The notes under the pieces: generated by a model
What the model was told of the DNA's origin: nothing
The model's database searches: none
Seen by the model: only the letters and a program-made list of their open reading frames with translations
Assembly: GCA_938040735.1 (NCBI GenBank)
Contig: CALHYE010000009.1
Span: 58,299 to 122,298 of the forward strand
Source: an uncultured Bellilinea sp.
GTDB taxonomy: Bacteria; Chloroflexota; Anaerolineae; Anaerolineales; Anaerolineaceae
Direction: 5' to 3'
DNA: 64,000 nt
Translations under genes and position numbers: made by a program
Shown here: piece by piece, positions 1 to 43,286 of the stretch
Layout: each line of letters starts with the position of its first letter
Position numbering within the stretch: the first letter of the stretch is position 1

Positions 1-1470
1 ATTCAGGTCTATTGTAATTCGGGCTTCTTCCAGATACTCACTGGCAATTTTATGATCCCATTGGGTATAGTTTTGCCCGCCCGTAGCCTGCACGGAATCC
101 CAGAAAGGGTAAGGGTCTGGATCGGGGGAACGGGTAAAGTTCAGGTCCACCAGCGCAGCCTGATAATCCCGCGGCGTTAGATGCTGATCAATTAAGTCCG
201 GGTAAGGCAGGTACTCGAGCGTGATTTGCACATTCACTGCTGCCCAGTCCTGCTGAATTGCCTCAGCCAGGGCGCGGGAACGAGGATTATCCGGTACCAG
301 CATTGTGAATTGAAGCGCATCGCCGTCCTTGCCAATACGCACATCCCCGCCCTCGGCTGGCAAACCGTAACCGGCGTCAATCAGAATCTGGCGAGCCCGT
401 TCGGGGTCGTAGTTAACCCGCGGTAGACCATCGTAGTACGCCCACGTCCCCGGGAAGATCGGGCCGTCCGCCAGAATCGCCTGCCCACCCAGAATTCGAT
501 CCACCAGATATTGGCGGTTGATCCCCAGATACAGCGCCCGCCGAACATCGGTCTTTTGCAGAAAGCCCGCTTCAGGGTTTTTGAGATTGAAAAGAATCAA
601 ACTAAGTTCCGGTTTTCGACCGGTGTAAATTGCTAAATCCCGTTCAGCCAGCGCTGAAGCAAGCGCCTCCTCGCTGATTGAGCTGATTCCCATCACCCGG
701 TCGCCCTGATAAGCCTGTAAGGCCGATACCGCATCGGGAAAATAGCGGAAGATGAACTGGGGTATGAATGGCTTCTTGCCGTAATAATCCTCGAATGCCA
801 GCAGGGAAACCCCCACAATTTGACCGTCCTCCACAATCAACTGGTCGAAGCGGTAAGGCCCGCAACCTACCGGCTGAATGTTGAATTGCAAGTCTCTGAT
901 TTGATCAATGGTGCGGTTGCCCAACAAATGCTGTGGGACGACGCCAAACGTCAAATAATCCAGAAATGGAGCGAACGGTTCAGGGAGTTTAAACTGGATC
1001 AGCGTATCGCTCAATTGGACAACATCCACATCACGCCAAAAACGCTGAAGGTCCTCCGGCACAATTTCGCCGCCGTTGCGAAGCATTTCGATCGTAAAAA
1101 CAATGTCCGCCGCGGTAAGCGGTTGACCGTCATGCCACTTGACATTCGGGCGAATCTCAAAGTTATAAATCGTACCATCCTGAGAAACGCCCCAGGAAGC
1201 GGCCAAATCCGGCACGGGAATACCGCGTTCATCAAAGGATAACAGACGGCAGTACAGGAGGCGGTCAATGTCACGGTCGGCCGGATTGTAAAAGTCCAGC
1301 AGCGGGTTCAAGCGCTGCAACGAACCGATCAAGGCTTCGGTATAAAAACCCCCCGTTACGGGTTCCGGCACGATTTGGGTAACCCCTTCGGGCTGCTCGC
1401 TGAGCAGCAAAATTCCAACCACCAAACCGGTCAGAAGAATGATGAGAATTTGCCAGCGGAATTTTTTCAT
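1..1470 (-). CDS. ABC transporter substrate-binding protein, SBP_bac_5 (oligopeptide) family; C-terminus runs off the left edge
   Basis: Minus-strand translation from ATG at 1470: MKKFRWQILIILLTGLVVGILLL...LNPLLDFYNPADRDIDRLLYCRL...WHDGQPLTAADIVFTIEMLRNGG..., typical SBP_bac_5 motifs; open to window edge. Confidence 0.93.
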   Translation of the reverse strand, partial: MKKFRWQILIILLTGLVVGILLLSEQPEGVTQIVPEPVTGGFYTEALIGSLQRLNPLLDFYNPADRDIDRLLYCRLLSFDERGIPVPDLAASWGVSQDGTIYNFEIRPNVKWHDGQPLTAADIVFTIEMLRNGGEIVPEDLQRFWRDVDVVQLSDTLIQFKLPEPFAPFLDYLTFGVVPQHLLGNRTIDQIRDLQFNIQPVGCGPYRFDQLIVEDGQIVGVSLLAFEDYYGKKPFIPQFIFRYFPDAVSALQAYQGDRVMGISSISEEALASALAERDLAIYTGRKPELSLILFNLKNPEAGFLQKTDVRRALYLGINRQYLVDRILGGQAILADGPIFPGTWAYYDGLPRVNYDPERARQILIDAGYGLPAEGGDVRIGKDGDALQFTMLVPDNPRSRALAEAIQQDWAAVNVQITLEYLPYPDLIDQHLTPRDYQAALVDLNFTRSPDPDPYPFWDSVQATGGQNYTQWDHKIASEYLEEARITIDLN

Positions 1471-32300: not shown

Positions 32301-34100
32301 TTATAGCAGCACATCCACCACCAATGCCAGAAAGATGAACGCCAAATACATGGAGGAATACCGGTACATGCGCCAGGCAACTTTATTACCCGGTTTGCGC
32401 AGCACATTCCAGGCGGTGTGAATAAGCCACAAACCCAATACCGCCGCGGAGATCAGGAAGACGCTGCCGCCTACCTTGAAAACCGGCATTAATAAAGTAA
32501 GGGCAACCAGTTCAAGCGTGTAAATAAATATTTGGGTGCGGGTTTCTTTCTCGCCGCGCACCACCGGCAGCATCGGCACGCCAGCGCGGGCGTAATCATT
32601 GGCGCGCACCAGCGCCAGCGCCCAAAAATGAGGCGGAGTCCACATGAACACCAACGCAAACAGGAACAGCGAGGGGATGTTCAAACTACCGGTGGCGGCT
32701 GCCCATCCAACCAGCGGGGGTATTGCCCCAGCCCCTCCGCCAATCACAATGTTCTGCACCGTTAAGTGTTTAAGCCAGATGCTGTACACCAACACGTAGT
32801 AAACCATCCCGGCGACCGAAAGCAGCGCCGCCAACAGATTAACCGTCCCTGCCAAAATAAAAAACGCCGCCAAACAGGCGCTGATTCCATAAGCTAACCC
32901 TTCCGCGGGCGTCAATATTCCGGATGGAATCGGGCGTTTAGCCGTGCGCTGCATGGCTCCATCAATCTGGCGGTCAATGTACTGGTTGAGGGCGCTCGAA
33001 CCACCTGCCGCCAAAGCCCCTCCCAGCAAAGTCCAGAGGGTTAACTCCAGCGTGGGAATCGCCTTAGCGCCGACCACCATACCGGCGTAGGTCGTCACCA
33101 AAAGCAGCGTTACAATGATGGGTTTATTCAGCGCAAGATAGGCTTTCAGACGCTGTTTCCCGCTTACTCGCTGCATTTGTGCGGCTTGGCGCTCCTCAGC
33201 CTCGCTTTTTCCCAGCCGGATGGCTGCAATCAACAGCGTGACCACACTGACCCAAACCGCAGCCGTGATAGCCGCGTGAACCGCCACCAGATCCAGCGGA
33301 AAACTTCGCTGGACTTTAATCGCGCCAATCCAGGCCTGACCGGCAAACAATACCATCAGGGCGCTGGCAGAACTCAACACCAACGGCTGGTCAAAATAGG
33401 AGCGGCGTGCCTTGAAAAATACTCCAATTACTGCCAGACCTGCCAGCAAAGTCAACAGACGGTGACCGAATGCCAGCCAACCCAAAGCGGTTGCAGGCAG
33501 ACCGCCATTACACAGGGGGAAACCGGCGCAAGCGCTGCCAGCATCCAACCGGGCAGCCAATACACCAGAAATCATCAATCCAAAAATCAGCAAAAAGGCG
33601 GCTGCCGAGTTACGCCCCAGCGACGAACGCAAAGATACCGAACTCTTTGGCAGATTTCCGGTTGAAAGAAACAAATGGGTTACCGCCCCAACCAGTAAAG
33701 CCATCGTGAGGAGGGCCGCCGCTAAATGCGCGGCTGCCAGCCAAATTGTCCCCACCTGCCTCTGCTCTGCCAACCCGCTCCCCAGCCCCGCCTGAACGAG
33801 AAACAAAACCGAGGCAAGGGTCAGGCTGATCTTTGCCCATCCGCCCATTCGGCTTGCCCACATCCAGCCGGTCAAAAACAGGGTTATCAATCCGCCGGCT
33901 GCCGCGATCAAGCGATGGGCAATTTCCACCCGGGCAGCCGATTCAGCCGGAATGCTCCACTGGCCGAAACAGGTTGGAAAATCCGGGCAGCCCTCTCCGG
34001 CGGGATTGAAGCGCATCCCGTAGCCAATCATTAAAGAAATAAAGGTTAGAACAGCCGCCGTCAGCAGCCAGTATCGCAATCGTTGACTTTCAATGTTCAT
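32301..34100 (-). CDS. Fusion: heme A synthase (COX15/CtaA) plus protoheme IX farnesyltransferase (CtaB/CyoE)
   Basis: N-half GMRFNPAGEGCPDFPTCFGQW...VEIAHRLIAAAGG; C-half LALNKPIIVTLLLVTTYAGM...ALNQYIDRQIDGAMQRTAKRPIPSG. Confidence 0.92.
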   Translation of the reverse strand: MNIESQRLRYWLLTAAVLTFISLMIGYGMRFNPAGEGCPDFPTCFGQWSIPAESAARVEIAHRLIAAAGGLITLFLTGWMWASRMGGWAKISLTLASVLFLVQAGLGSGLAEQRQVGTIWLAAAHLAAALLTMALLVGAVTHLFLSTGNLPKSSVSLRSSLGRNSAAAFLLIFGLMISGVLAARLDAGSACAGFPLCNGGLPATALGWLAFGHRLLTLLAGLAVIGVFFKARRSYFDQPLVLSSASALMVLFAGQAWIGAIKVQRSFPLDLVAVHAAITAAVWVSVVTLLIAAIRLGKSEAEERQAAQMQRVSGKQRLKAYLALNKPIIVTLLLVTTYAGMVVGAKAIPTLELTLWTLLGGALAAGGSSALNQYIDRQIDGAMQRTAKRPIPSGILTPAEGLAYGISACLAAFFILAGTVNLLAALLSVAGMVYYVLVYSIWLKHLTVQNIVIGGGAGAIPPLVGWAAATGSLNIPSLFLFALVFMWTPPHFWALALVRANDYARAGVPMLPVVRGEKETRTQIFIYTLELVALTLLMPVFKVGGSVFLISAAVLGLWLIHTAWNVLRKPGNKVAWRMYRYSSMYLAFIFLALVVDVLL

Positions 34101-34905
34101 AAATTTCCTCACCAGAATGAATGGCGCTTTCATCAGCCTGATCGTTTGAAGTTTCGTTTTTGTTTTCCAATTGCTTGCGCACAAAGAAGGGATAGCCGAA
34201 AGCCAGAATTGCCGCAAACGAAAACCATTGCAAAGCATACCCAAAGTGAGGCCCTTCGGTCATTTCAATTTCGGGCAGGGAGGGGTACGGCAGTTGCAGG
34301 GTTGCCCCTTGGGGAGCTTCTTGAACCCAAATGGGCAGCAAGTTCAACCCGGTTTCAGCGCGCCAGCGCTCCAAATCAATCCAGTTCCAGGCTTGCGGGC
34401 CGGGTTGGTTCGGGTTGAACGGCGGGTCGGCCACTCCGCCAATCGCCGGCTTGGGCATCGGCCGGCGAATCATCCCGCTCACCGAAACCAAACCATCCCG
34501 GCGGTATTGCAGCCGGCTTTCGGCGTCTGCCGCTCCCAGCGGTATCCAGCCGCGGTTGACAAACACGACCCAGTCCGTACCATCAATCAACAGGGGGGTG
34601 AACAGATGATAGCCCGGCTGGTTATCCCAGACCTGATTGCGCCAGAGAAATTCATGTTCATCATCGTATCTGCCGCTGACCTGAACCATTCGATATTCCA
34701 TATCGAACAACTCATTCAGCGGCAGTTTGTCGTTCAAATCCAAGGCAGGGGAGTTAACTTGACTCAAGATGCGTTGGTTGAGACTGCGCCGCCATTCCAG
34801 GCGATCCAACTGCCAAAACCCCAAACGAATCATCACCGCCACAGCGGCAACCACCAGCAAGGTAGTCAAAATCCATCGCGGAGTGAGCAATTTACCGCTC
34901 ATCAA
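34090..34905 (-). CDS. SURF1 family cytochrome oxidase biogenesis protein
   Basis: LGFWQLDRLEWRRSLNQRI, VFVNRGWIPLG, HFGYALQWFSFA. Confidence 0.92.
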   Translation of the reverse strand: MMSGKLLTPRWILTTLLVVAAVAVMIRLGFWQLDRLEWRRSLNQRILSQVNSPALDLNDKLPLNELFDMEYRMVQVSGRYDDEHEFLWRNQVWDNQPGYHLFTPLLIDGTDWVVFVNRGWIPLGAADAESRLQYRRDGLVSVSGMIRRPMPKPAIGGVADPPFNPNQPGPQAWNWIDLERWRAETGLNLLPIWVQEAPQGATLQLPYPSLPEIEMTEGPHFGYALQWFSFAAILAFGYPFFVRKQLENKNETSNDQADESAIHSGEEIYEH

Positions 34906-34908
34906 AAG

Positions 34909-35430
34909 TTAACCAACCTCGCTCACCGCGTTTTCGGTTTCGCTGCCCGGCAGCGGTTTAACCACCAGCGTATAAAGCCAGAGCAAAATCCAGGTTGGGA
35001 AACCGATTGAGATGATCCCGAAGACTCGATCGGAGGCTTTGGCGCGCGGCAGTACATCAATCCCCAATGAGCGGGACTGCTGGAAGCTGCACTCCATCGT
35101 GTACTGGCTGGGACGGTCAAGCGTCATGCGGCTGGTGGAACCCGGCAGCACCCACAACGGACCTAATTGATGAGAAACCTCGTCCAGATTGCGGACAAGC
35201 AGGATATCCCCCTCGACAAACCGCATCTCCGGCAGCGAAGGGCCATTCTCTCCGTTGGCGATGCGCGCCGCCGTTCCGGCCGGTACCAGAATTTCCACCG
35301 TCTGCGGCGGCCGCTCACTCCGATCCTTGACCATCTGATACGAAACTTCGCTGACCGCAAAGGCAAAAATGGAGCTGATCAGCAAACTCCACCACAAACG
35401 CCGTAAGGCCGCCTGAACTGCCGGAGACAT
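34909..35430 (-). CDS. Two-TM protein with cupredoxin-like, ligand-degenerate domain
   Basis: VRNLDEVSHQLGPLWVLPGSTSRM...YTMECSFQQSRSLGIDVLPR between two TM segments; located in the cox operon. Confidence 0.55.
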   Translation of the reverse strand: MSPAVQAALRRLWWSLLISSIFAFAVSEVSYQMVKDRSERPPQTVEILVPAGTAARIANGENGPSLPEMRFVEGDILLVRNLDEVSHQLGPLWVLPGSTSRMTLDRPSQYTMECSFQQSRSLGIDVLPRAKASDRVFGIISIGFPTWILLWLYTLVVKPLPGSETENAVSEVG

Positions 35431-36832: not shown

Positions 36833-38680
36833 TTAATCGCCCGCTTGCTGGGGCAAGACTTCAACATAACGGGCGCCTTTCAAGCCGTAATCGTACGGAT
36901 CACCCACCACCCGAATCGGCTGTGGATAATTGTGCATCGGCGCCGGCGTGGGCAGCACCGTCCACTCCGGTGAGCGGGACTGCCATACATTCTCTGTTAC
37001 CACTTCACCGCGTTTGGCGCTGACAAATAAATTGATCAGGAAAATCAGCACCGAGAACGCGACCATGAAACCGGCAATGGTGATGATCAGATGAGCCGTT
37101 TCAAAACCCTGTGCCGGGTCATAATCCGCAATCCGGCGGCGCATCCCCAACAACCCAACTTGCATTTGCCCAAACGACATGATCAGGAACCCCGGCGTCA
37201 GCAGGTAAAAATGAATCTTTCCCAGTAAATCGTTCATCTTTCTGCCGGTAACTTTTGGATACCAGTAGTAAATTGCGGCAAACAACGGAAAGATGAAACC
37301 GCCAAACATGGTTGCGTGGAAATGCCCCACGACAAAATAGCTATCGTGCATGTGCAGGTTGGTCGAAACCGTGCCAAGCGGCGGGCCGCTCAAGCCGCCC
37401 ATCAAGAACACGATAATCGCCCCGATGAGAAACAACATTGGAACCTGAAAACGAATTCGCCCCATCCACATGGTGGCTACCCACGAGAAGAATTTAATAC
37501 CGGTTGGGACGGCCACCAGCAGCGTTGAGTACATGAACGGCACGCGCAGGTATTCCTCCATACCGGAAGTGAACATGTGGTGCGCCCATACCAGAAAGCC
37601 CACTAAGGCGATCCCCAGCGAGGACATGGCTACCCACTTGTAACCAAACAAGGGTTTTCGCACAAATACCGGCAGCAGTTCACTGATGATTCCCAAACCG
37701 GGCAGAACGAAGATATACACAGCAGGATGGGAATAGAACCAGAACAGGTGCTGGAACAGAATTGGATTGCCGCCCTGTGCGGCGTTGAAAAATCCCATCC
37801 CGAACAAGCGTTCAAAACTGACCATTTGAAATGAAGTGCCAATTAACTGGGTGGCCGTTAGAGCAATGATCGAAGTTGCCAGCGTCGCCCACGCAAAAAT
37901 CGGCATGCGGAACATCTTCATGCCGGCGGCGCGCATCCGCAAAATGGTGACAATCAAATTCAGCGCGCCTAAAATGGACGACCATCCCGCAAAGAAAACG
38001 GCCACAAAGAACATCTGCATTCCCATCGGAGCGCGGATGCTGAGCGGCGGGTATCCCGTCCAACCGGTATCAAACCCGCCGGTAAAAATTGCCGAAACCA
38101 GCACCAGCGAGGCTGGCACCGCCAGCCAGAAGGAAAAGGCATTCAGGCGCGGGAATGCCATGTCCCTGGCGCCAATCAACAGCGGCACGGCGTAATTGGA
38201 CATGGCCGAGATGCCCATCAAGATCGAAACAATCAGGGTCATGCCGTGCATGCCAATTAAGGTATTGAAGAAATTCAGGGTCACCCACTGCATTCCCGTC
38301 TGCACCAGTTCCACGCGGAAGATCAGCGCAAAGGAACCGCCAACCACCAACAAAAAGAGCGAAAGAAACGCGTACTGAACCCCAATGACTTTGTGATCCA
38401 AGCTATAGCCAAAGTAGCGTTTCACCCCCGGTTCTTCGTGAATTTCCTCCGGGTCGGGGGTTTCTTCGCCCTTCGCCCAGGCAAACCAGTCACGGAATGC
38501 GCCAATCCCGATCAAAAAGCCGATAATTCCAAGCGCTGCGCCAACCACCCAGGCCGGTTCGGCTTTGTAAGCCAACCCCATCAAAGCGCGAATGCCGGTT
38601 ACCAAACCTATACCGGCTGCCCAGCCAATTGCCTGGCCGATCAAACCCCGAAGAATTCCGTATGAAAAGATACCTTTCAT
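36833..38680 (-). CDS. ctaD: Cytochrome c oxidase subunit I
   Basis: HLFWFYSHPAVYIFVLPGLGIISELL, WAHHMFTSG, HDSYFVVGHFHATMFGG. Confidence 0.98.
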   Translation of the reverse strand: MKGIFSYGILRGLIGQAIGWAAGIGLVTGIRALMGLAYKAEPAWVVGAALGIIGFLIGIGAFRDWFAWAKGEETPDPEEIHEEPGVKRYFGYSLDHKVIGVQYAFLSLFLLVVGGSFALIFRVELVQTGMQWVTLNFFNTLIGMHGMTLIVSILMGISAMSNYAVPLLIGARDMAFPRLNAFSFWLAVPASLVLVSAIFTGGFDTGWTGYPPLSIRAPMGMQMFFVAVFFAGWSSILGALNLIVTILRMRAAGMKMFRMPIFAWATLATSIIALTATQLIGTSFQMVSFERLFGMGFFNAAQGGNPILFQHLFWFYSHPAVYIFVLPGLGIISELLPVFVRKPLFGYKWVAMSSLGIALVGFLVWAHHMFTSGMEEYLRVPFMYSTLLVAVPTGIKFFSWVATMWMGRIRFQVPMLFLIGAIIVFLMGGLSGPPLGTVSTNLHMHDSYFVVGHFHATMFGGFIFPLFAAIYYWYPKVTGRKMNDLLGKIHFYLLTPGFLIMSFGQMQVGLLGMRRRIADYDPAQGFETAHLIITIAGFMVAFSVLIFLINLFVSAKRGEVVTENVWQSRSPEWTVLPTPAPMHNYPQPIRVVGDPYDYGLKGARYVEVLPQQAGD

Positions 38681-38701: not shown

Positions 38702-40120
38702 TTATTTGAGCGACTTGATATATTCAATGATTTCCAGAATCTGCTGTTCCGGGATCGTATCCTTGTAAATCTGCGGCATTACCCCGGGTACAAATCCTTT
38801 GGGAACCTGAGCGTTCGGATTGATAATCGCCGTCAATAAATACTCATCATCTACGGTGACCACCGAGCCGTCGGTGAGTTCATGGCTTAGTCCATACAAG
38901 CCTTTCCAGGTGGGACCCACGTTAGGCGAGCCGTCCACAGAATGGCAGGAAAGACAACCGTTATTCCGCGCCCAGACCTCCCCGCGTGTAACCGGATCGG
39001 TGCCAAGGGCAGCCAGTTGATCCTGCACCCATTGATCAAATTCGGACTGAGTGACCACCTTAACCGGAGATTCCATATAGGCGTGGGATGTGCCGCACAT
39101 CTCCGCGCAGCGCACTTTGAATTCGCCCAATTCGGTAGGGGTTACCCGTAGTTCACGCACCAAATTTTCCCCCGGCAGAGTATCTTGCTTGACCCGAAAC
39201 TCCGGCACCCAAAACGAATGAATGACATCCAGCGAAGTCAGTTTTAATAAAGCCTGCTTGTTGACCGGCATAACCATTGTGTTGGAAACAATCCCGTAAT
39301 CGGGATATTCAAACCGCCAGAACCACTGCCCGGCAACGACCTTGATCTCCAATGCCTGCGGGTCAGCCCGGCGCGTTTCAGCCAGCGAAACCGAACCCAA
39401 ATAAGCAAAATAAATCACGATTCCCAGTGGGATGACCGTCCAGATGATCTCAAGCGGATTGTTACCCTTGATGTAAGCGCCGTCCTCCTCCTCCCCCGGT
39501 TTATGACGAAAAACAACCATACTGTAGCCGAGAAAGACGACAATCAAAGAAAACAACAACGAGATCATGAAAAAATGCAGGTTGAACAACCGATCAATCG
39601 GTTGCGCCTGCAAACTGGCCGCAATCGGCAGCAAGGGGATATTGCTCAACAGGTAATAAATTAAGGCGGTAAAGGCAGCGATGAGAACACCAACAATCAC
39701 AAAATGCTTCATAGATGATCTCCTCTGTACAGGGGGTTGCTCACGGGTGGTTTGCGAAAACTTCGGTAAATTCAACCAATCCTCGGCTTGGGCAGGCGTT
39801 AGGGTGCGCCGGTCATACACAACCACCGCCCCGCTGGATTTCAAAGAAACCAGCATGACCTGCATGGGTTGATCGCCAGCGACAAATTCTTGTAAAAATT
39901 CAGCGCGGGAAATGGCTTTATCGTCATAATCCAGGATGATTAAGTCCGGCAGCCAGTTTTGCATCTCAGTCAGAACAGCCTCATTGGTAGCCACGCGGCG
40001 GATTTCCAATTGCGGATTTTTCCACTGACGCTGAATCATTTTTTCCAATCCCTGTCCAAACAGTGGATTGGCCGAGGCAATTAACACCCGCTGATAAGGC
40101 GCACTTGTTTTCGGACTCAT
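38702..40120 (-). CDS. ctaC: Cytochrome c oxidase subunit II with C-terminal cytochrome c domain, preceded in frame by a receiver-like domain
   Basis: CuA site VIHSFWVPEF and CAEMCGTSHAYM; heme CLSCH; N-terminal ~130 aa VLIASANPLFGQGLEKMI...PDLIILDYDD; internal ATG at 39712 with upstream AGAGGAG. Confidence 0.9.
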   Translation of the reverse strand: MSPKTSAPYQRVLIASANPLFGQGLEKMIQRQWKNPQLEIRRVATNEAVLTEMQNWLPDLIILDYDDKAISRAEFLQEFVAGDQPMQVMLVSLKSSGAVVVYDRRTLTPAQAEDWLNLPKFSQTTREQPPVQRRSSMKHFVIVGVLIAAFTALIYYLLSNIPLLPIAASLQAQPIDRLFNLHFFMISLLFSLIVVFLGYSMVVFRHKPGEEEDGAYIKGNNPLEIIWTVIPLGIVIYFAYLGSVSLAETRRADPQALEIKVVAGQWFWRFEYPDYGIVSNTMVMPVNKQALLKLTSLDVIHSFWVPEFRVKQDTLPGENLVRELRVTPTELGEFKVRCAEMCGTSHAYMESPVKVVTQSEFDQWVQDQLAALGTDPVTRGEVWARNNGCLSCHSVDGSPNVGPTWKGLYGLSHELTDGSVVTVDDEYLLTAIINPNAQVPKGFVPGVMPQIYKDTIPEQQILEIIEYIKSLK

Positions 40121-40257
40121 AACAATTCCCTGAAATTCAACTCCCAAAAATACCCACCTATAATTTACACAAAAATTGTCCGATTTTCTACTCTCGGACA
40201 ATTTTTTACAGGTTAAATTCAATTTTCCCTTGGGGTGATTTTCAGCTCACCCGCTCA

Positions 40258-40911
40258 TCATTCTCTTTTGTGAATCAGCCCTAATTGCAATCCCTTACTG
40301 ACGGCTTCGGTACGGTTGGACGCCTCCAATTTTTCGAGGATGTGGCGTACGTGGGTCTTTACGGTGTTTTCCGAGATGAATAAATGCGCCGCAATCTGAC
40401 TGGTGGTTTGACCGGCTGCCAGACAATCCAATACTTCTAATTCCCGGTCGCTCAACAAGGGTTGAGGTTTAATATCCCCCTGTTGCGCCAGAGCGCGCAG
40501 TACAACGCCGGTCACCTCCGGCGAAAGCGCCCCATCCCCTTGGGCAACCCGTAAAATGGCTTTTCGCAGATCCTCCGGCTCGATATTCTTCAGCAGATAA
40601 CCATCGGCGCCCAGCCGGATAGCCGAAAGCAAATCGTCTTCATCTTCTGAAATGGTCAGCATCAGTACGCGCACCGGCAGATTCAACCGGCGAATTTGAT
40701 CCACCGTCTGAATGCCGTCCATTTCCGGCATATTCACATCCAGCAACACAACATCCGGTTTCTCTTGCTGAATGACTTGCAACGCTTCTCGCCCGTTACC
40801 GGCTTCGCCGACCACCTTAAAACCGTGTAAATCGTTAATCAAGCCAATCAGGCCGCGCCGAAAGAGAGCATGATCATCCACCACAACCAATCGTATGGGA
40901 AAAGCGGTCAT
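40258..40911 (-). CDS. NarL/FixJ-type response regulator (REC + LuxR HTH)
   Basis: VVVDDHALFRRGL, VVLLDVNMPEMDG, LSDRELEVLDCLAAGQTTSQIAAHLFISENTVKTHVRHIL. Confidence 0.97.
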   Translation of the reverse strand: MTAFPIRLVVVDDHALFRRGLIGLINDLHGFKVVGEAGNGREALQVIQQEKPDVVLLDVNMPEMDGIQTVDQIRRLNLPVRVLMLTISEDEDDLLSAIRLGADGYLLKNIEPEDLRKAILRVAQGDGALSPEVTGVVLRALAQQGDIKPQPLLSDRELEVLDCLAAGQTTSQIAAHLFISENTVKTHVRHILEKLEASNRTEAVSKGLQLGLIHKRE

Positions 40912-42719
40912 ACTGGAGATTCCTCTTGCTTCAGGGGTAAATGAACTCGGATTGTCGTCCCTGCCTGAGGTTTACTGATCACCTGAAAGTCAGCGCCGAT
41001 CAATTCAGCCCGTTCGCGCATGCCGCGCAATCCATGCCGCGAGAATTCGGGGACATCCTCGGCGCTGAACCCCACCCCATTATCGCTGATTTCCAAAATC
41101 AGCATGCCTTTCCAATTCCGCACTTCTATGCGAACCCGGCTTGCCTGTGAATGTTTGCGCACATTACTGAGCGCTTCCTGAATAATTCTTAGCAATTGCG
41201 CCTGAACTTCGGGCTCAATTTTCGGCAGTTCAGATGGGAAATTGCGTTCAACCCGCATACCGCTGTTTTTTTCAAATTCGCGGGAAAGCGGTTCCAGCCA
41301 AAGAATCATATCCTCACCCGGACTTAATCTCAAACTATCAATCACCTGGCGGGTTTCCAGATAAGCATCCGCCAAAGCCTGATGAGACTGGAGAATCATT
41401 TGTTCGAGACGTTGTAACTCTCCATGCGCCAGTTGAGTTTGCATTTGAGCAACCGTCAATTTCAGGTACGCCAGGGTTTGAGCCAGACTATCGTGAATCT
41501 CCCGCGCCAGCCGGATGCGTTCTTGCAGCACAACCCGGTATTCGCGCTCCATCTGAGCCCGCTCACTCTCCACCAGCATCGCCAGTTGATTGGCAATGAT
41601 CGTTAATAGTGGACGGCTCTCGGCCGGGATTGATTGACCACCGCGACTGACCAAAAGGATGGCCCCAATCAACAAGTCGCCCGGCAGACAGCAAGGCAAT
41701 GCCAGAACCACCATTTCCTCGGTGATAGATGATACATCCTGAAGACCACAATTCGCCGGGCGCAGATTATTCAGCAACTCCTTCATCAATTGATCAGCCG
41801 CTTGAGACTGGATCCAGCCATTACTGCCCGCCATTAGTTGCATTCCGCGGAAGTGCGGCGGAGATGGTTTAATTTCCAGACGGGCTGCGCTAAAACCCAA
41901 AACAGCGCAAAGATGCTCCAGCAAGTTTTGGGCATAATGTTCAGTGGAGGATTGCAAATCTTGCGGAGATTGCAACTGCCGTAAGGCAGCCTGTTCCTGC
42001 GTTTTCAAGCGAATCACTTCCAGCGCCGAAAGCATTTCGCGCAGCAAGGTCGCGAGAAATTCGTGCGTTTCACTCTCTAATTGCTGGCTAGGCGCAAAGT
42101 AAATATTTAACATTGCCAACGTTTGCTGTTCGCGCTGTAAGGGCAGGCAGTAAATCCGCACCGATTGATCAAAAGGGGCTTCGAGCAGCGGACACGATTC
42201 GCCGACGGTGGTCTCCAACTTCTGGCAGACGCGGCAACGGCTGCGCACGCGCGGCTCACTCAAATGTTCTGCCCAGGCTTTCAAAACCGGCGCCGGATAA
42301 GCCCCGTGCGTCAGAGCATTCAGCGGTTGCCCCCATTCATCAAACGGCATAAAGGAAATGCCCACTGCCCCGGTCATTTCGCTGATGATGGCAAGAGACC
42401 GTTCAATCAATTCCTTTTCATTTTGCGCCTCTAACCAGACTTGATTCAGCCGCAGCATTCCGTGCAGACGGCGTTCTAAAGCGCTGCCCGTCTCACGAGT
42501 GTCTTGTAGAGAATGTTCCAGAATCTGCTGCTGTTTCCGGCGTTTCCACCAATCCGCCAACAGCCAGGAAATTGCCCCTGCCAGCAGCGCCGCCGGGATC
42601 CAAAATCCCCCATCATCTGGCTGGTTTTTCAGCATCCATTCCAACCCCAGCACAGTAATGAAACCAGCGAACAGAATGATTAAAACTACCGGGTCAACCG
42701 ATTTGAAACGCCTTTTCAT
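40908..42719 (-). CDS. Sensor histidine kinase (HisKA_3), GAF-like sensor regions
   Basis: QERIRLAREIHDSLAQTLAYLKL, LRIIQEALSNVRKHSQA, ISDNGVGFSAEDVPEFSRHGLRGMRERAELIG. Confidence 0.96.
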   Translation of the reverse strand: MKRRFKSVDPVVLIILFAGFITVLGLEWMLKNQPDDGGFWIPAALLAGAISWLLADWWKRRKQQQILEHSLQDTRETGSALERRLHGMLRLNQVWLEAQNEKELIERSLAIISEMTGAVGISFMPFDEWGQPLNALTHGAYPAPVLKAWAEHLSEPRVRSRCRVCQKLETTVGESCPLLEAPFDQSVRIYCLPLQREQQTLAMLNIYFAPSQQLESETHEFLATLLREMLSALEVIRLKTQEQAALRQLQSPQDLQSSTEHYAQNLLEHLCAVLGFSAARLEIKPSPPHFRGMQLMAGSNGWIQSQAADQLMKELLNNLRPANCGLQDVSSITEEMVVLALPCCLPGDLLIGAILLVSRGGQSIPAESRPLLTIIANQLAMLVESERAQMEREYRVVLQERIRLAREIHDSLAQTLAYLKLTVAQMQTQLAHGELQRLEQMILQSHQALADAYLETRQVIDSLRLSPGEDMILWLEPLSREFEKNSGMRVERNFPSELPKIEPEVQAQLLRIIQEALSNVRKHSQASRVRIEVRNWKGMLILEISDNGVGFSAEDVPEFSRHGLRGMRERAELIGADFQVISKPQAGTTIRVHLPLKQEESPV

Positions 42720-42863: not shown

Positions 42864-43286
42864 CTATTTGAAAGTTTTGATATAGGAAACTACCTGCCAA
42901 ATTTGCTCATCGGTAAGAATGCCCTTTTGAGCAGGCATGGAGGAATTGAACGGGGCCATCGAACCGCCTTCAGCAATCCGCCAGAAGAGATAATCATCGC
43001 CAGCCGTGCCAACCACCTCATTGAGGTGAGCGGGTTTGGGGTCTAAGCCAGCGGCTGCCGGACCATCGCCTGCGCCGCTGGGTCCGTGGCAGGACGCACA
43101 GCGTTCTTCATAAATGGTTTTTCCAGCCGCAACGGCATCGCTTCCAAGCGGGTTGGTCTTGCCGGCATATTCAGCCGGGACAGCGGGTCTATCGGAAGTG
43201 GCTTGTCCGCCGCCTCCGCCGCAGGCTGCAAGAATGAGTGCGCTCAGCACAAAAACCATCAGAATCGTTGGGAATACTTTTTTCAT
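42864..43286 (-). CDS. Cytochrome c lipoprotein, single heme
   Basis: Lipobox LSALILAACGGGGG; ERCASCHGPSGAGDGPAAAGL; IWQVVSYIKTF. Confidence 0.92.
   Translation of the reverse strand: MKKVFPTILMVFVLSALILAACGGGGGQATSDRPAVPAEYAGKTNPLGSDAVAAGKTIYEERCASCHGPSGAGDGPAAAGLDPKPAHLNEVVGTAGDDYLFWRIAEGGSMAPFNSSMPAQKGILTDEQIWQVVSYIKTFK

Follow-up and report, generated by a model that had tools for sequence, protein, structure and literature searches.

Why should a receiver-like domain and subunit II of a cytochrome c oxidase (CoxII) lie in one uninterrupted reading frame in an anaerolineal bacterium? The question is raised by a 64,000-nucleotide stretch of DNA from an uncultured Bellilinea sp. (the window), in which a first-pass annotation had read a degenerate receiver running without a stop into CoxII from ATG 40120, and had offered either a cytoplasmic pseudo-receiver tethered to the oxidase or one ORF with two products by internal initiation as the explanation. 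Re-reading returned exactly these coordinates, with the first stop at 38702-38704, and the internal ATG 39712 is preceded by AGAGGAG (39726-39720) as had been described (Table 1). An AlphaFold model of the fusion comprises a folded N-terminal domain (hereafter PsR), a disordered linker (pLDDT <50 over residues 119-135) and three membrane helices.

Table 1. Features around the PsR-coxB gene, in window positions; residues are numbered from ATG 40120.
Feature	Position	Strand	Remarks
Single ORF, 472 aa	38702-40120	-	PsR, short linker, then complete caa3-type CoxII with cytochrome c
PsR domain and linker, residues 1-136	39713-40120	-	fold spans residues ~11-116, α4 missing
Linker, residues 119-136	39713-39766	-	variable, disordered, in frame; ends in translated Shine-Dalgarno (QRRSS)
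Internal Shine-Dalgarno AGAGGAG	39720-39726	-	7 nt ahead of internal ATG 39712
CoxB/CtaC, caa3-type subunit II with C-terminal cytochrome c	38702-39712	-	336 aa counted from internal ATG
First hydrophobic helix, residues 136-160	39641-39715	-	signal peptide or anchor; AlphaFold model
Further helices, residues 172-203 and 221-248		-	AlphaFold model
CuA site CAEMCGTSHAYM, residues 338-349	39074-39109	-	ligands invariant in alignment; extra ligand His301
Heme c motif CLSCH, residues 389-393	38942-38956	-	
Cox1 (CtaD)	36833-38680	-	directly downstream of PsR-CoxII; own AGAGGAG site
NarL/FixJ-family response regulator	40258-40911	-	active site intact
Sensor kinase	40908-42719	-	N-terminal TM region, GAF region with CxxC...C, HisKA_3, HATPase
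Lipoprotein-type cytochrome c	42864-43286	-	often upstream of kinase in relatives
Perfect hairpin AAAAATTGTCCGA/TCGGACAATTTTT, then T run	40171-40207	-	fold z = -5.5

The oxidase half is a complete CoxII-cytochrome c, as first annotated: it scores 162.3 bits against the NCBIfam CoxB family TIGR02866 (cut-off 147.7), contains a CXXCH motif and has CuA ligands that are invariant in the alignment (C338, E340, C342, H346, M349 and H301), and the two further helices of Table 1 are predicted to precede the cupredoxin domain, as in CoxII proteins. Its best PDB match is subunit IIc of the Thermus thermophilus caa3 oxidase (PDB 2YEV chain B, E 3e-43), which likewise combines a CuA site with a C-terminal cytochrome c but lacks both a receiver-like domain before the first membrane helix and an internal-start arrangement. 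After the first helix, the fused proteins share the sequence ASxQA, with A168, S169, Q171 and A172 kept or nearly so; CoxII precursors are processed in many bacteria. Two other ORFs of the region deserve mention. A 173-aa protein (34909-35430, minus strand), which most relatives retain in their cox operon and which has no Pfam or NCBIfam match, could by eye be cupredoxin-like and membrane-anchored, and may act in copper-site assembly. One 647-aa ORF (32301-34244, minus strand; by eye) apparently joins heme A synthase and protoheme IX farnesyltransferase, and a similar joined ORF lies downstream of PsR in locus L095 (4101-5939).

The window PsR alone falls below threshold against PF00072 (E 0.003; 18.2 bits against a gathering score of 30.2), although 53 of 64 family members match at E<0.01 (best 2e-8), and the family profile finds NarL receivers as its best PDB matches (1.7e-8 and 7.2e-7). 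A model built from the 64-sequence alignment (pLDDT 85.6) has the order β1-α1-β2-α2-β3-α3-β4-β5-α5 and, for want of α4, falls short of the full (βα)5 topology. Foldseek, proposed at first pass, returned almost exclusively receivers from the PDB for this model (TM ~0.5, probability 1.0), with a best E of only 1.7e-3. These matches bear out the receiver resemblance. The claimed loss of the acidic pair is confirmed, and its position now reads Ser16-Ala17, Ser16 being invariant in the family. All aligned members retain the phospho-acceptor Asp64; Ser92 occupies the Thr position in the window PsR and an invariant Arg104 the Lys position, both aligned by eye. Leu93 is also invariant, Tyr102 and Trp115 are nearly so, and the conserved set includes α3. 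A pseudo-receiver has been defined as a recognised receiver without any one of the five active-site residues D, D, D, T and K (PMC12632262); judged by its sequence, PsR is one, since the family is recognised as a receiver and active-site residues are missing. Its nearest sequence-profile matches, the NarL/FixJ receivers (M. tuberculosis NarL, 3EUL; E. coli, 1A04; EvgA and VraR), share the α1 motif PLFxxGL and the Asp64 position. Unlike these regulators, PsR has lost the acidic pair and α4, sits on a respiratory subunit and has no DNA-binding domain: the PsR-CoxII ORF gave no GerE match that would indicate a C-terminal LuxR-type HTH, and is thus not itself a NarL/FixJ regulator.

The N-terminal domain was found in 37 of 151 related genomes searched, mostly in an open frame of ~480-540 aa. 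Scanning a single genome for each species yielded 69 loci, of which ~65 are true relatives, nearly all from Anaerolineae; in all of the ~65 except two, PsR immediately precedes coxB. A class-wide profile search, in which ordinary receivers dominate the matches, gave distant PsR-coxB pairs in Caldilineales and other Anaerolineae groups; in a phylum-wide sample, used to look for fusions outside Anaerolineae, CoxB frames are mostly ~340 aa, with a few longer. Among ~70 Anaerolineae PsR loci, PsR is fused in frame in 39 and stands as a gene of its own in 31. In the CoxB tree, the clade of the window is fused in 21 of 21 rows, five cultured species included, another clade of 19 rows is wholly split, and at least 6-7 state changes are required overall. 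The fused isolates include Bellilinea caldifistulae, Thermanaerothrix daxensis, Anaerolinea thermolimosa, Longilinea arvoryzae and Levilinea saccharolytica. The in-frame arrangement that was to be sought in relatives therefore recurs; the stop before coxB that had been named as evidence against it also exists, in the 31 split loci, but these belong mostly to other clades and the fusion stands in the clade of the window. An assembly or frameshift artefact is ruled out by 39 fused loci that include five cultured species. One Levilinea MAG has two different PsR-CoxB fusions.

Comparison of the linkers shows that the fusion frame is conserved and that PsR and linker are under coding-type selection. 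At least eight linker length changes in the 21-row fused clade and at least three in a second fused clade are all multiples of three, whereas in the spacers of the 19-row split clade at least 8 out of 16 such changes shift the frame; at the split-clade rate, eleven consecutive in-frame changes would occur with p ~5e-4. Values of pN/pS are 0.08 for PsR, 0.10 for CoxII and 0.50 for the linker. Over seven independent pairs, the linker changed at 39/85 synonymous versus 56/278 nonsynonymous sites (p 5e-6); the spacers of split loci, averaged over frames, gave 0.46 versus 0.38, a control weakened by poor spacer alignment. A chance ORF resembling a receiver is ruled out by the PsR value. Since no stop separates PsR from CoxII in the fused species, every PsR there begins as part of a fusion.

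The internal start is likewise conserved, and at the nucleotide level. In 36 of 37 fused loci the CoxII start is preceded by a Shine-Dalgarno core of 5 nt or longer, a length reached by ~5% of random windows taken from those loci. Of 58 arginines in the eight codons ahead of the internal ATG, 55 use AGG or AGA, compared with 9.5% in the rest of these ORFs. The last five codons show a synonymous change of 0.20, and the flanking domains one of ~0.55; given this codon bias and low synonymous change, an apparently conserved RRS peptide is a translated Shine-Dalgarno. An internal Shine-Dalgarno and start selected as nucleotides are the sequence-level mark of a two-product gene. At the PsR start, 21 of the 37 loci lack any match as long as 4 nt and 14 have one of 4 nt, somewhat above random and far weaker than the internal sites. 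From this difference we infer two products in unequal amounts, and most likely one ORF would yield scarce PsR-CoxII and abundant CoxII. Tether and two products had been posed as alternatives; with frame and internal Shine-Dalgarno/ATG both kept, the comparative data favor the two together.

The kinase/NarL pair lies upstream in 53 of 66 PsR loci but in none of 27 PsR-less coxB loci (Fisher 6e-14, kinship ignored). In a tree-aware comparison of PsR and NarL, ~4 of 6 pairs agree and none oppose, with a median p of 0.125 in what is an underpowered test. Two genomes of one genus in the family of the window lack both PsR and NarL, and a cytochrome c is the nearest recognised gene before coxB. Away from coxB, PsR occurs as kinase-NarL-PsR-SURF1 and kinase-NarL-PsR-ctaAB (L148 and L095), and in L149 after a cytochrome c alone. 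PsR beside the kinase and NarL genes without an adjacent coxB indicates a link to the two-component system in addition to the one with CoxII. Most kinase orthologs carry the GAF cysteine motif (CxxC...C) and nearly all NarL proteins have an intact active site, so the system plausibly senses redox state or oxygen. The regulatory role that the first-pass annotation called plausible from the neighboring pair is made more plausible by conservation of the pair. Within the kinase of the window, the GAF region holds RxxCxxC...CPL, which most orthologs share and which is a candidate site for redox sensing by a metal or Fe-S cluster. Active-site residues have been lost even from the NarL-type regulator that neighbors a split PsR in one genus (L028, L029 and L030; IDTH/IDNH, IDTDF or FDTDF).

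The hairpin between the regulator gene and PsR was spotted by eye and then folded, its loop exceeding the limit of the automatic terminator scan. It is probably the terminator of the regulator gene, and PsR-coxB therefore probably starts its own transcript; a promoter-like ATGACA-N17-TAAATT, recognized by eye, precedes PsR in several relatives. Just upstream of PsR in L052 and L054, a near-perfect palindrome surrounds the promoter-like TTTGGTAAATTA (in L054, AACGGAGATAATTTGGTAAATTATCTCCGTT) and could be an operator or a terminator.

A mechanism is proposed where initiation at ATG 40120, with little Shine-Dalgarno, would give the PsR-CoxII fusion, and initiation at ATG 39712, with a strong one, would give ordinary CoxII in larger amount. 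As CuA lies outside, the inferred topology would place PsR in the cytoplasm, before the first membrane helix. A receiver-fold domain would then be displayed by a minority of oxidase assemblies, or of assembly intermediates, if the tether persists after processing. No longer phosphorylatable in the usual way, PsR would most likely dock a partner, for which the adjacent kinase or NarL regulator would be the first choice; with α4 gone, docking might use the α1/α5 face, through which NarL-family receivers dimerise (PMC12632262). The level of oxidase would thereby feed back on the redox two-component system. We give this dual-start model with a docking role for PsR, taken as a whole explanation, about an even chance of being correct. 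Its fullest form, in which the oxidase-borne, non-phosphorylatable receiver holds or modulates the neighboring redox kinase/NarL system, dual initiation sets the fraction of enzyme that bears it and the enzyme reports its own abundance, is tentative and rather unlikely to hold in every part. Several observations weigh against tethering and docking: in 31 of 70 loci PsR is an independent, apparently soluble protein, whose role can therefore not depend on the tether; 13 of 66 PsR loci have no kinase/NarL pair nearby, and the partner may be another; and the conserved α3 residues play no part in the proposed docking.

Signal peptidase may also cut at ASxQA after the first helix and free PsR from the oxidase. 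The tether would then be transient, leaving a membrane-anchored PsR and the same mature CoxII that the internal start provides. Near-complete conservation of the four ASxQA residues and the frequent processing of bacterial CoxII precursors fit this reading, but the split clade shows an anchored PsR to be dispensable, and we consider it unlikely. The split loci, each with its own PsR gene and a stop before coxB, lend themselves to the view that PsR and CoxII function independently and never joined, with the absent stop incidental and the read-through product rare or non-functional; the nearly universal internal Shine-Dalgarno agrees with that. A frame that survives at least eleven linker length changes in fused clades, in a linker that evolves as coding sequence, is difficult to reconcile with an incidental fusion, and this view is also unlikely.

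Two further readings each dispense with one of the products. If the internal ATG were silent, CoxII would always bear PsR, as the continuous ORF and strong selection on PsR would allow, but maintenance of the Shine-Dalgarno as nucleotides (the arginine codon bias and low synonymous change given above) makes this very improbable. Alternatively, the upstream ORF, directly ahead of coxB in nearly all loci, might serve as a leader that controls coxB translation in cis and not as a working protein. Pairing of the coxB Shine-Dalgarno does not exceed background (0.41 versus 0.39 unpaired), which gives no support for occlusion of the start; together with the strong amino-acid constraint on PsR and its persistence where coxB is not adjacent, this leaves the leader barely credible.

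Pseudo-receivers, caa3-type CoxII and internal starts are each known already, and it is their combination that appears to be new: the open-access literature searched yielded no receiver-fold domain in frame with oxidase subunit II across a class. The closest regulatory parallel is CmrRST of C. difficile, in which a receiver without active-site residues is encoded with an otherwise normal kinase/regulator pair, and for which binding or hetero-dimer models have been proposed (PMC12632262). PsR is similarly a pseudo-receiver encoded beside such a pair, but CmrT is an OmpR-type DNA-binding regulator, whereas PsR precedes or joins a membrane enzyme subunit. Bacterial N-terminal proteoforms that arise from internal starts, such as those in PMC11005335, also give two in-frame products of one gene from two starts; the long form here, in contrast, gains an entire folded regulatory domain, with conservation of both starts over many genera.

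The mode of action of bacterial pseudo-receivers is still unsettled (PMC12632262), and this family offers one whose partner is, on one side, physically in the same gene and, on the other, likely encoded by a neighboring gene. Fused, split and absent states form a natural comparison for the effect of tethering a regulator to an enzyme. The hosts were first described as strict anaerobes, and their genomes encode aerobic respiration, according to PMC4653796 and PMC4653793; in these organisms, the oxidase may itself provide the place where the redox two-component system of the neighboring genes docks.
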